DNA from: Deltaproteobacteria bacterium
GTDB lineage: Bacteria; Desulfobacterota; Desulfarculia; Desulfarculales; Desulfarculaceae
Assembly: GCA_021815655.1 (NCBI GenBank)
Contig: JAKAGJ010000092.1
Location: 1 to 7,425 of the forward strand
DNA: 7,425 bases
Direction: 5' to 3'
The notes beneath the pieces were generated by a model, which did no database searches, was not told where the DNA came from, and worked only from the letters and a program-made list of their open reading frames with translations. Numbering within the stretch: position 1 is the first letter of the stretch; the number at the start of each line of letters is the position of its first letter. Of this stretch, positions 2,881-7,425 are shown in pieces. The position numbers and the translations under genes were made by a program.

Positions 2881-4692
2881 CTAAACCGACCCGCCATTGC
2901 CAGCGGGGGCGCCCTGCCCGCAGACGCCGCAGCGGCGGCAGGTGGCCGGCGCGCAGGCCGGTGACTCCTTGCCCGCCAGGGCGCGTTGGGCCTCTTGCCA
3001 CAAATAGGCGCGGCTGATGCCGTGGTCGATGAAATCCCAGGGCAGCAGTTCCGCCAACTCCCGCCGCCGGCCGGCGTAAAAATCCGGGTTCAGGCCGGCC
3101 TGGCTAAAGGCCGCCTTGGGCTCCATGCCCTGGGCCAGGCCGGCGATGACCGGCCCCAGGCGGCGGTCGCCCCGGGCCAGGGCCGCCTGCATCTGGGCGT
3201 ATTTGGGCACGTCACAGGTTACCTTGAGATTGGCCAGGGGTTTGAGCTCCTTCTGCACCCGGGCCATGCGCGCCTTGATCTGGGGCAGGGGGGCCATGGG
3301 CTCCCACTGGAAGGGCGTCCAGGGCTTGGGCACGAAGGCGTTGAGGCTCACCGTGACCTGCCCCAGGTGCCCCCGGCTGCCGGCGGCGCTGACCACCTGC
3401 TGGCGCAGGCGCCGGGCCAGGCCGATCAGCTCGGCCACGTCCTCGTCCTGCTCGCTGGGCAGCCCCACCATGAAATAGAGCTTGAGGTTGGGCACCCCGC
3501 CCTGGATCAGAAGCTCGGCGGCTTTTAGCAGCTCGTCCTCGCTGAGGTGCTTGTTGATGACCCGGCGCAGGCGGGCGCTGCCGGCCTCTGGCGCCAGGGC
3601 CACGGTCTGGTGGCGGCTCTGGGCCAGGGCTTCCACCAGCCCCGGCCCCAGGCGGTCGGCGCGCAGGGAGCTGACCGAGAGCTTGCCACCTTCCCTGAGC
3701 ACCCGGCCGGCCAGCTCGTCCAGGCCCTCGATGTCGCTCACCGCCGCCGAGACCAGCCCCACGCGCCCCCACTGGCGGGCGGCCTGGCCGGCGGCCTCCA
3801 GGAAGTCGGCGCCAGAGCCCAGGCGGGGGGGGCGGTAGAGGTGTCCGGCGGCGCAGAAGCGGCAGGCATGCGCACAGCCGCGCCCCACCTCCATCAGGGC
3901 CATGTCGCCGAACTGGGGGCCTTGGGCGTTGAACACGCTCCTGGCCAGGCCGGCGGCCGGCCCCTGATACTTGGGCGCGCTCACCCGCGCCGGCACTTCG
4001 GCCAAGGGCGCGAAGGACTCCAGGGTGCCGTCGGCCTGATAGCGGGGCTCATAAAGACTGGGGGCGTAGAAGCCCTGCACCCGCTGGGCCAGGCCCAGCA
4101 AGGCCTGGGGCCGAGGCAGGTGCCCCCACTCCAGGAAGGCCTCCAGAAAGGGTTCCAGCACCACCTCGGCCTCGCCCAGCAAGAAGCCGTCCAGGAGGCC
4201 GGCCAGCGGCTCGGGGTTGAGCATGGGCACCACCCCGCCGGCGACCACCAGGGGGCCTCGGCGCTGGCCGGCATCCAGGCCCAGCCCCGCCAGGTCCAGC
4301 ATGGCCCCCAGGTGGGGGGCGTCGTTCTCAAAGGACAGGGTGGCCAGCACCAGGTCGAAGTCGGCCAGGGGGCGCGAGGATTCCAGGGTCAATAGCGGCG
4401 CGCCGGTCTTGGCGTACAGCGCGGCGGCCTGGCGGTCGGGCAGGAAGGCCCGCTCGCACAGGGCGTCGGCGCGGTCGTTGATGCTGCCGTACACCGTGGC
4501 CAGGCCCAGGTTGGCCAGGCCCACGGCGTAGGTGTTGGGGTAGATCAGGGCCACATTGAGGCGCCCGCCGGGCTCCTTGCGCACCGCCCCCTGCTCGCGG
4601 GCCAACAGGGCGCGGTGGTACTGCACCAGGGGCTGGGTCTGGCGGGGCAAGGTCTTCTCCTGATTGGGCAATGGGCCAAGGCCCTTAGGCAT
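2881..4692 (-). CDS. Radical SAM protein, TIGR03960-like, with C-terminal cysteine cluster
   Basis: This 603-residue protein begins at ATG 4692. The N-terminal Rossmann-like domain (about 45-190) starts LNVALIYPNTYAVGLANLGL, as in B12-binding-type radical SAM proteins, but I see no DxHxxG cobalamin motif. The radical SAM cluster motif is C273-x3-C277-x2-C280 (GRGCAHACRFC). ALAPEAGSARLRRVINK (365-381) and LKLYFMVGLPSE (403-414) are typical core strands. The C-terminal PWDFIDHGISRAYLWQEA (551-568) and a second cluster C580-x4-C585-x2-C588-x2-C591 (RRCGVCG) match the TIGR03960 group, whose reaction is unknown. The cluster could bind an auxiliary Fe-S centre. The frame stays open upstream to 5223, but that part is antisense to the neighbouring gene and unlike the family, so it is excluded. 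No strong Shine-Dalgarno precedes 4692. The gene is divergent from a winged-helix-like gene. Substrate unknown. Confidence 0.85.
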   Translation of the reverse strand: MPKGLGPLPNQEKTLPRQTQPLVQYHRALLAREQGAVRKEPGGRLNVALIYPNTYAVGLANLGLATVYGSINDRADALCERAFLPDRQAAALYAKTGAPLLTLESSRPLADFDLVLATLSFENDAPHLGAMLDLAGLGLDAGQRRGPLVVAGGVVPMLNPEPLAGLLDGFLLGEAEVVLEPFLEAFLEWGHLPRPQALLGLAQRVQGFYAPSLYEPRYQADGTLESFAPLAEVPARVSAPKYQGPAAGLARSVFNAQGPQFGDMALMEVGRGCAHACRFCAAGHLYRPPRLGSGADFLEAAGQAARQWGRVGLVSAAVSDIEGLDELAGRVLREGGKLSVSSLRADRLGPGLVEALAQSRHQTVALAPEAGSARLRRVINKHLSEDELLKAAELLIQGGVPNLKLYFMVGLPSEQDEDVAELIGLARRLRQQVVSAAGSRGHLGQVTVSLNAFVPKPWTPFQWEPMAPLPQIKARMARVQKELKPLANLKVTCDVPKYAQMQAALARGDRRLGPVIAGLAQGMEPKAAFSQAGLNPDFYAGRRRELAELLPWDFIDHGISRAYLWQEAQRALAGKESPACAPATCRRCGVCGQGAPAGNGGSV

Positions 4693-4717
4693 GTTACCAC
4701 AGGCCCCCGCCCGCCAC

Positions 4718-4763
4718 CACGCCGGCCGCGCCGGCCGGCGCTTGACCCGGCCCGGCCGGCGTG
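4718..4763. repeat. 10-base inverted repeat in the divergent intergenic region
   Basis: CACGCCGGCC (4718-4727) is the exact reverse complement of GGCCGGCGTG (4754-4763), with 26 bases between that are themselves full of GCCGGC palindromes. It sits between the divergent radical SAM and winged-helix-like genes. It could be a transcript hairpin or a binding site, or simply a by-product of GC-rich sequence. Confidence 0.4.
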
Positions 4764-4770
4764 TCACTGT
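4742..4770 (+). promoter_or_regulatory. Promoter candidate for the winged-helix-like gene
   Basis: TTGACC (4742-4747, 5/6 to the -35 consensus) is 17 bases from CACTGT (4765-4770), which is a poor -10 but is preceded by TGT as in extended -10 promoters. Transcription would start about 45 bases before the ATG. An inverted repeat, CTGTT-GA-AACAG (4767-4778), overlaps the -10 box. Confidence 0.3.
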
Positions 4771-4822
4771 TGAAACAGGCGGGGCCGCCGGCCCCGGCGC
4801 CACCCTAACAGCGGGAGCGGTC

Positions 4823-5281
4823 ATGGAGCAGGATAAGCAGCGGGAGTTCCTGGAGCGCTTGATCCAGGCCGGCGAGCAGGCCAGCATGTGGGAGCTGGGC
4901 CAGGCCATGGGCCTGGACCGGGGCGCCACCGAGGCCCTGGCCACGTCCCTGCTGGCCCAGGAGGCCCTGCAGATGGTCAGCCTGAGCGGCAAGGTATGCC
5001 TCACCGAGGCTGGCCGCCAGATGTGCGGCCCTGGCGGAGGCAGCAACGATCTGGCCCGCCTGCTGGCCGACCTGGAGGGTGCCGGCGGCCTGGGCCTGAG
5101 CGGCCCGGCCCGCCAGGACTTCCTGGCTGACCTGGCCACCCTCAAGGCCCAATTGGGCCGTAGCCAACCCTTGGCGCCGGTGATTAAGGCCTGCCTGGCC
5201 GCCCTGGAGAGCGCCCTGGCCAAATCCCCGGCCCCGGAGGCCGCCGGCTTGCTCCAGCGCGCCTCGTCCCTGCGCGGCTAG
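4823..5281 (+). CDS. Small winged-helix-like protein, putative regulator
   Basis: This 152-residue protein is not one I can name. Residues about 5-65 look like a winged helix: helix FLERLIQAGE, then MWELGQAMGLDRGATEALATSLL as a helix-turn-helix-like pair, then a strand-wing segment ALQMVSLSGKVCLTEAGRQM. The LTEAGR element is typical of the wing in MarR-like and related families. The rest is Ala/Leu-rich helix with a glycine-rich linker (CGPGGGSND). There is no membrane segment or catalytic motif. I chose ATG 4823 because GGGAG lies 5 bases upstream; the frame extends to 4664, but that part is Pro/Arg/Gly-rich and reads as non-coding. It is divergent from the radical SAM gene, a common position for a local regulator, so control of itself and that gene is a reasonable guess only. 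The tandem repeat array begins 3 bases after its stop. Confidence 0.72.
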   Translation: MEQDKQREFLERLIQAGEQASMWELGQAMGLDRGATEALATSLLAQEALQMVSLSGKVCLTEAGRQMCGPGGGSNDLARLLADLEGAGGLGLSGPARQDFLADLATLKAQLGRSQPLAPVIKACLAALESALAKSPAPEAAGLLQRASSLRG

Positions 5282-5283
5282 GC

Positions 5284-5441
5284 CGGGTGCCCCCGGCGGG
5301 GCTTAACCGGGTCGGGTAGGCTGGCTTCCTGGCCAGCGCCGCCGGCTCCCGTCGGGGCCTTGACGAACAGTCAGCAGTCAGGGAGCGGGTGCCCCCGGCG
5401 GGGCCTAACCGGGTCGGGTAGGCTGGCTTCCTGGCCAGCGC
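5284..5441 (+). repeat. Tandem pair of a structured repeat (56-base copies, 102-base period)
   Basis: Positions 5284-5339 and 5386-5441 are identical at 55 of 56 bases (T5303 against C5405). Each copy folds into two hairpins: GCCCC-CGGC-GGGGC near the start and CTGGC-TTCCTG-GCCAG near the end. A further piece, CGGCTCCCGTCGGGGC, follows the first copy only. The same family appears in inverse orientation at 7260-7425, sharing the first 18 bases (GGGTGCCCCCGGCGGGGC) exactly and later blocks with changes. No protein frame is supported here. Confidence 0.85.
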
Positions 5442-5463
5442 TGAGCAATAGAAGGAACAAAGC

Positions 5464-5538
5464 CGGGCGGGGATAACCCCCGCCCCTACACCAAGATGCC
5501 ATTTCTCTTAATGTAGGGGCGGGGTTTATCCCCGCCCG
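5464..5538. repeat. REPIN-like inverted pair of palindromic repeats
   Basis: The 26 bases at 5464-5489 and the reverse complement of 5513-5538 differ at one base only, with a 23-base AT-richer spacer. Each arm is itself a palindrome (GGGCGGGG, 4-5 base loop, CCCCGCCC) with a CTAC/GTAG tail on the inner side. The whole can form one long 26-pair hairpin or two short ones. It lies between the convergent winged-helix-like and selenoprotein genes, where it could stop transcripts from both sides. A third, single copy is at 187-211. With the tandem repeats it fills the 299-base gene-free stretch 5282-5580. Confidence 0.85.
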
Positions 5539-5580
5539 CTCTGCCTATCAACCTAAGGCTGGCCTCGTCCGCTGGCCCTG

Positions 5581-5904
5581 CTAGCAGCTACAGGAGGTGC
5601 TGCCGCAGCTGCCGCCGCCGCCCAGGGGATGGGCCGTGGAGAGCACGAAGCCCTGCTGCCAGCCGTTGTCCACGAAGTCCACCTTCACATCGCCGCTCTG
5701 GCCGCTAAGTTCCTTGTCGATCAGGTAGGTGAGCCCGTCGACCTCGTACTTGTCGTCGTTTTCCTTTGGTTCGTCCAGAACCAGTCGGAGCGACGGACCG
5801 CTTCAGCCGCCGGCTTGCAGAAAGACCCGCAAGGCGGAGTCCAACTGCTTCTCCTGCATGAAGGCCTTGATGGCCTTGCTGGCGCTCTCGGTAACCTCGA
5901 TCAT
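5581..5904 (-). CDS. HesB/IscA-like selenoprotein with in-frame UGA (Sec34)
   Basis: Reading TGA 5805-5803 as selenocysteine gives a 107-residue HesB/IscA-type (A-type Fe-S carrier) protein ending at TAG 5581. Residues 1-33 run MIEVTESASKAIKAFMQEKQ to RVFLQAGG, then Sec34, then SGPSLRLVLDEPKENDD, YEVDGLTYLIDKEL (53-66), VKVDFVDNGWQQGF (73-86), and a tail of Gly and Cys (GGGGSCGSTSCSC). In the family the residue after 'GG' is the conserved first cysteine (GGCSGPS), so TGA replaces exactly the metal-binding Cys; TGC to TGA is a single base. Coding potential continues cleanly to the end, and a SECIS-like hairpin follows. HesB-like selenoproteins are an established bacterial family. GGAAGGG lies 8-9 bases upstream of the ATG. 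The role is probably Fe-S assembly or redox, exact partner unknown. A nonsense-mutated pseudogene is the alternative but less likely. selA, selB, selC and selD are not in the window. Confidence 0.85.
5767..5783 (-). promoter_or_regulatory. Bacterial SECIS element candidate for Sec34
   Basis: On the minus strand TGGTTC (5783-5778), loop TGGAC (5777-5773) and GAACCA (5772-5767) form a perfect 6-base-pair hairpin inside the coding sequence. The loop starts 25 bases after the TGA, within the 16-37 base window known for bacterial SECIS elements, and has a G at its second position as those elements require for SelB binding. The fit to these rules is seen; function is inferred. Confidence 0.7.
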
Positions 5905-7259: not shown

Positions 7260-7425
7260 GGGAGCCGACAGCCCTGGCCTGGTCCATGACCTGCCAGACC
7301 CGGCATGCCCCGCCGGGGGCACCCGGAGGCCGTGGCTTTTGTATCGGAAAGCGCCCCTACGGGAGCCGACAGCCCTGGCCTGGTCCATGACCTGCCCGAC
7401 CCGTCATGCCCCGCCGGGGGCACCC
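7260..7425 (-). repeat. Second tandem pair of the structured repeat, inverse orientation (101-base period)
   Basis: Positions 7260-7324 and 7361-7425 match at 63 of 65 bases, with a 36-base spacer. Read on the minus strand each begins GGGTGCCCCCGGCGGGGC, as in the 5284-5441 array, and ends CGGCTCCC; the copy at 7361-7425 also has CATGAC...GTCATG as an inner stem. The GTAGGGGCG next to the 7361 copy is also the tail motif of the REP palindromes at 5464-5538. The array runs to the window edge and may continue. No gene is seen in 7199-7425. Confidence 0.8.

Follow-up and report, generated by a model that had tools for sequence, protein, structure and literature searches.

A HesB/IscA-family gene with a predicted selenocysteine codon and SECIS hairpin in a Desulfarculaceae bacterium

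On the minus strand of the window (the whole stretch of 7425 nucleotides analysed here), we infer with a probability of about 0.93 that the gene at 5904–5581 encodes a HesB/IscA-family protein whose UGA codon 34 is decoded as selenocysteine (Sec), with a predicted SECIS hairpin 25 nt downstream directing the insertion. HesB-like selenoproteins are already established, and the gene adds one well-supported new member. The window is the whole of contig C93 of its bin (G000; 3.16 Mb in 641 contigs, 71.3% complete), and the nearest named relatives are two Desulfarculus sp. MAGs (95% protein identity).

The reading frame and its family

The predicted gene runs from ATG to TAG (5583–5581) and has 107 codons plus the TAG; its product reads MIEVTESASKAIKAFMQEKQLDSALRVFLQAGG-U-SGPSLRLVLDEPKENDDKYEVDGLTYLIDKELSGQSGDVKVDFVDNGWQQGFVLSTAHPLGGGGSCGSTSCSC*. 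The only TGA is codon 34 (5805–5803, minus strand), and further lesions are absent across the 107 codons. The original prediction had placed one such frame here with a single TGA at codon 34, and both its coordinates and its reading are right. An A/G-rich stretch, AGAGAGGGCAGGAAGGG, lies 5' of the ATG. The predicted Sec opens the motif USGP (residues 34–37), which fits the UxGP criterion of the HesB-like selenoproteins in the literature, and the protein ends in a Cys-rich tail, GGGGSCGSTSCSC (residues 95–107; 5584–5622, minus strand), in which Cys100, Cys105 and Cys107 are candidate ligands.

The protein exceeds the curated cut-off of the NCBIfam profile NF038090 (IscA_HesB_Se; 123.3 bits, cut-off 85), with residues 1–102 aligned to positions 1–101 of the 101 in the profile, and that of PF01521 (32.6 bits, cut-off 26.3), so that the proposed HesB/IscA type is borne out. 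The NF038090 match covers both sides of the TGA, as expected from the family similarity that had been claimed to continue beyond it. There is no substantive difference from NF038090, whose name itself marks a family with selenoproteins; no paper on this profile was found in the paper collection searched. The protein stays under the cut-offs of the equivalog models for IscA, SufA and ErpA (TIGR02011, 40.6 of 150.6 bits; TIGR01997, 37.8 of 136.2; NF010147, 39 of 117). With the HesB-like selenoprotein of the literature (TIGR01911, HesB_rel_seleno, e.g. that of Methanococcus maripaludis) the window protein shares the HesB/IscA homology and the UxGP Sec; it is however a sister subfamily outside that model, since it scores 45.6 bits, below the cut-off of 66.35. 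In the text available to us, a survey of 2006 counts 11 bacterial HesB-like selenoproteins in its Table 1, several of them from Deltaproteobacteria (PMC1794560), and a 2026 review treats HesB-like proteins as the UxGP family under TIGR01911 (PMC13188914). Between them these excerpts report several deltaproteobacterial members, in agreement with the original prediction, and the family is also listed in the portions of PMC9312934 and PMC1088965 consulted. The corresponding part of a paper on A-type carriers (PMC2682760) does not treat Sec forms.

Annotation of the family is affected by the UGA. Among 75 homologues in the protein collection, 48 are 60–80 residues long and 44 of these 48 begin behind the UGA, nearly always with LRLVLDEP or VLDEP; some of the short homologues are called hypothetical protein, for example in Dethiosulfatarculus sandiegensis. 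That ordinary gene calling would truncate such genes had been anticipated, and in these relatives it does. Taken at face value, the 44 short entries would mean two short proteins as annotated, a 33-residue N-terminal piece and an internally started piece of about 68 residues. Both pieces however form one fold in the IscA structures and the Cys relatives are continuous, and the short annotations are not independent evidence because gene callers unaware of Sec share one blindness. We regard two separate proteins as very improbable and reject the split as a gene-calling artefact. The window thus holds one more real gene that standard gene calling splits in two.

A predicted SECIS hairpin behind the UGA

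The predicted bacterial SECIS hairpin (5783–5767, minus strand) has a 6-bp stem, UGGUUC/GAACCA, and a loop UGGAC (5777–5773) that starts after 25 nt behind the UGA. All 47 of the distinct Sec genes examined form its five inner pairs, and none of the 20 distinct Cys genes does. In the Sec genes the element takes the form GG(U/C)UC, a 5-nt loop and GA(A/G)(C/U)C, together occupying nt 23 to 37 when numbering starts with the UGA's own U as 0. The loops of 46 Sec genes are UGGAU, UGGAC or, once, UGGCU. The Cys twins at nine loci where a Sec and a Cys form stand in tandem (L021, L023, L030, L090, L091, L092, L098, L105 and L108) have no SECIS hairpin. A first comparison had used 18 distinct Cys rows, with the far locus L028 left out and the L050 row shifted by one codon. 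For the set of 47 and 20, one Sec gene (L114) and three Cys genes (L053, L086 and L028) were added. Three matches were dropped, namely the Cys twin of genome G016 (one gene, present in both L029 and L050), which by eye is without the hairpin, and L084, which has neither Cys nor Sec at the place of residue 34.

When the 46 Sec rows (the set of 47 without L114) were resampled synonymously in 1000 trials, with codons drawn at the frequencies that these genes, pooled, show outside the hairpin stretch, the hairpin was left in a mean of 2.8 genes and a maximum of 8. The window's own hairpin contains Val GTT, Glu GAA and Pro CCA; in four window genes these three account for 4%, 16% and 3% of the Val, Glu and Pro codons. 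The comparison of 47 Sec with 20 Cys genes is a clean example of codon choice betraying a SECIS element.

RNAalifold and the pair counts both used the Sec rows other than L114, 46 of 47, and RNAalifold returned exactly the five inner pairs. One of them varies, being C-G in 29, U-A in 16 and U-G in 1 of the 46 sequences; a Val/Ala difference on one side goes with GAA versus GAG for a constant Glu on the other. Three of five measures, among them the covariation score (0.200), exceeded all of 500 shuffles that keep the relatedness of the sequences, and the other two did not. Because U-A is seen only within the window's own family, the variation at this pair may go back to a single ancient change.

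According to the excerpt of the 2026 review (PMC13188914), the bSECIS model asks for an apical loop of 3–9 nt, a stem of 4–16 bp, a G in the first two loop positions, a distance of 16–37 nt from the UGA and a free energy at or below −7.5 kcal/mol. The window hairpin agrees with all of the geometry given there (5-nt loop, 6 bp, G at loop position 2, 25 nt). The 6-bp hairpin alone folds with −7.1 kcal/mol, just short of −7.5, and the 45 nt after the UGA with −13.5; the 56 nt from the UGA reach −18.7 kcal/mol, with a z of only −1.85. Folding of single sequences gave no clear signal among 11 sequences (z −1.85 to +1.07), which were not in one register, ten segments starting 6 nt before the UGA and that of the window at the UGA itself. 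Over the 27-nt stretch the folding energy averages −9.3 in Sec genes and −7.9 in Cys genes, a small difference. Only the comparative tests of the hairpin are informative. A search of the window against Rfam, which may hold no bSECIS model, gave no match. The original prediction contained no SECIS-like hairpin.

Conservation of the UGA and the selenocysteine machinery

The original prediction suggested looking for Cys or Sec homologues aligned at residue 34, and twelve relatives were obtained from genome contigs. TGA stands at the same codon in eleven of them; the exception is a far Chitinophagaceae protein, with Cys there. The order is represented by 21 genomes: a TGA form occurs in 17 (the codon was checked in the sequence of each), a stop-free form alone in three (G010, G017 and G018), and one (G015, 70% complete) gave no match. 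In a sample of the phylum the NF038090 cut-off was exceeded in 125 of 297 genomes; among the 150 matches listed, 118 have an in-frame TGA (one has two) and 32 have none, as counted by eye and with the exact codon position checked in the fetched loci. No relatives of the window gene were found in viral contigs.

Behind the TGA, the window gene differs from the two closest loci, L017 and L018, by 14 and 19 synonymous and by 3 and 3 nonsynonymous changes, over about 50 synonymous and 170 nonsynonymous sites (dN 0.018 and 0.018, dS 0.354 and 0.54). Against seven farther loci of the family, dN is 0.135–0.279 and dS 0.48–0.739 (one value saturated) in the same segment, and dN is 0.138–0.293 before the TGA. 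The segment beyond the TGA is under purifying selection, like the segment before it.

These data bear directly on the possibility that a nonsense mutation to TGA has disabled a Cys-type hesB gene, which a lone in-frame stop in a family with Cys members could suggest. Against such a pseudogene stand the same TGA codon in relatives across the phylum (118 among the 150 matches listed), the low dN/dS after the TGA relative to the nearest relatives, 107 codons without another lesion and the codon choice specific to the hairpin. We reject it on conservation and dN/dS, and its chance is negligible; the TGA is not decay, because it is kept in 17 of the 21 genomes of the order and purifying selection acts behind it. 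Further frameshifts or stops in close relatives, named at the outset as the mark of a decaying gene, were looked for and are absent.

Nor is TGA plausibly a sense codon for Trp or Gly throughout the organism. One relative, P0011, is recorded with W at the place of Sec, as a pipeline using such a code would write, but two of the five other genes of the window end in TGA, the bin has selB and a selD whose TGA stands at the UxxK place, and a SECIS-like hairpin follows the TGA. A general sense codon is rejected because two other window genes terminate with TGA, and we consider it extremely improbable. The record of P0011, GGWSGP, comes either from a pipeline reading TGA as Trp or from a true Trp.

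A protein tree built on 67 rows by 108 columns requires seven changes between Sec and Cys, three of them forced by the starred branches. The tree, in which 30 of 63 inner branches are open, gives no direction of change.

The original prediction implied a Sec-insertion system in the host, and the bin holds part of one: selB (365 bits, cut-off 242) and selD (L014, on contig C140; 369 bits, cut-off 125). The selD frame has an in-frame TGA of its own, in GUAAK. By its sequence the host selD is probably a selenoprotein gene itself, GUAAK fitting the UxxK motif that the excerpt of PMC13188914 lists for SelD selenoproteins. Searches of the 71% complete bin found neither selA nor tRNA-Sec, the four matches to the latter below threshold being Trp, Leu, Gly and Tyr tRNAs. 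A gap in the bin is the simpler reading, because it is 71% complete and spread over 641 contigs. In two genomes of the same genus, G013 and G014, selA, selB and tRNA-Sec (anticodon TCA checked) are all found; L017 and L018 apparently come from these two genomes, judging by the shared protein and, for G013, the shared coordinates. The implied system therefore stands as to selB and selD in the bin, and as to selA and tRNA-Sec in G013 and G014, with the latter two missing from the bin. A complete genome without sel genes would have spoken for decay; sel genes are present here, and the gap is selA and tRNA-Sec in a 71% complete bin.

In the order as a whole, selA exceeds its cut-off in 17, selB in 18 and the tRNA-Sec model in 13 of the 21 genomes, although some of the weaker tRNA-Sec matches may be other tRNAs, the TCA anticodon having been checked in two. 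G018 (92% complete) has the Cys form, and selA, selB and tRNA-Sec are all without a match over the cut-offs. G010 has matches to selA, selB and tRNA-Sec and yet the Cys form only, and G017, with selA and selB but without a tRNA-Sec match above the cut-off, likewise has the Cys form only. G010 and G017 speak against a simple rule linking sel genes and the Sec form.

Insertion of Sec at UGA by SelB and Sec-tRNA(Sec) is established in other bacteria. In the host, SelB with Sec-tRNA(Sec) would bind the hairpin at the time when UGA34 is in the ribosome, leading to Sec insertion in place of termination.

Fold, possible role and neighbourhood

An AlphaFold2 model of the protein, built from 18 sequences, has a mean pLDDT of 80, with residues 96–107 below 50. 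Its top structural match is E. coli IscA (1r94; TM 0.72/0.79, E 4.8e-7), and IscA and SufA chains head the ten PDB matches at E 0.001 or better. Identity to IscA in the structural alignment is 26%. Cys35 of E. coli IscA (PDB 1s98/1r94) is the counterpart of residue 34, so the TGA does fall at the conserved metal-binding Cys, as first proposed. The two proteins have the same fold and differ in that the window protein has Sec34 where IscA has Cys35. The protein shares its HesB fold and PF01521 match with the A-type carriers (IscA/SufA/ErpA).

In IscA, Cys35 is the first cluster-ligand Cys, and the tail has a C-G-C pair instead of the Cys100, Cys105 and Cys107 of the window protein. Sec34 would then occupy the site of the first ligand, the Cys-rich tail completing the site, and could bind iron or an Fe-S cluster through its selenolate, in a role like that of an A-type carrier in an anaerobe. 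Family and fold suggest this metal binding and carrier role; it is a reading from fold and position, as the search for canonical carriers was limited and the neighbours are not isc or suf genes.

That search used PF01521 on seven near genomes. The window-type gene was the only match in G000, G013 and G014, and the other four genomes had none; canonical IscA, SufA or ErpA was detected in none of the seven, in a search whose reach is limited because in those four it overlooked the NF038090 genes, of Sec and Cys form alike. Among control genomes 9 of 14 gave a match.

Sec and Cys forms of the gene are close neighbours, their starts no more than about 1.1 kb apart, in four of the 21 genomes of the order (G001, G005, G011 and G016) and, by eye, in at least 14 further genomes of the 297-genome phylum sample, which makes at least 18 relatives in all, from several families of the phylum. 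In the window's own bin only the Sec form was found. One speculative and rather unlikely proposal is that the Sec-bearing HesB is the sole A-type carrier, that Fe-S delivery would depend on selenium through a selenolate-ligated cluster, and that in the relatives the adjacent Cys twin would form a mixed Sec/Cys dimer or a selenium-dependent switch pair with it. The tandem pairs, together with the lack of any other detected PF01521 protein in the near relatives, turn the selenium dependence of Fe-S delivery into a testable question.

It is also quite possible, as far as the role alone is concerned, that Sec is inserted and the protein is a selenol redox protein or a handler of selenium or metal, not an Fe-S carrier. 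The 2026 review states, in the part available, that most uncharacterized selenoproteins are likely redox proteins (PMC13188914). The M. maripaludis HesB-like protein was found by mutagenesis and 75Se labelling; the section of PMC11097638 concerned calls its function not clear and cites an unpublished observation that M. maripaludis still fixed nitrogen. The typed neighbours in the window, not being isc or suf genes, are consistent with a redox or handling role as well. On the other side, the protein has the IscA fold with Sec at the place of IscA Cys35, inspection of the sequence finds no UxxC or CxxU motif at Sec34, and the search of G000, G013 and G014 gave no further PF01521 protein.

The typed neighbours of the hesB gene in the window are a polyprenyl synthase (upstream), a radical SAM protein (2881–4716, minus strand; TIGR03960 378 bits, under the cut-off of 462), a DUF6178 protein and a UbiE-type methyltransferase. 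By tblastn the radical SAM gene shares a locus with hesB in 7 of 13 loci, an opposite-strand ORF (4664–5281) in 8 and the polyprenyl synthase in 2, where absence of a neighbour means little because several of the 13 loci are short. The opposite-strand ORF has no match in Pfam or NCBIfam. In its 205-residue frame the similarity to the 8 relative loci begins at residue 53 or 54, so that the protein is probably about 152 residues long with a start at 4823 (4823–5281, plus strand).

Between this ORF and hesB lie two direct copies of 56 nt (5284–5441), 98% alike and 102 nt apart, with relatives elsewhere in the bin and at 7290–7425. An inverted repeat with 33-nt arms at 5464–5538 belongs to a dispersed palindromic family. 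A 257-nt query that spans it together with the direct copies (5284–5540) gave 81 matches in G000, 85 in G013, 82 in G014 and 46 in G017, numbers that exceed those of the elements because palindromes match on both strands.
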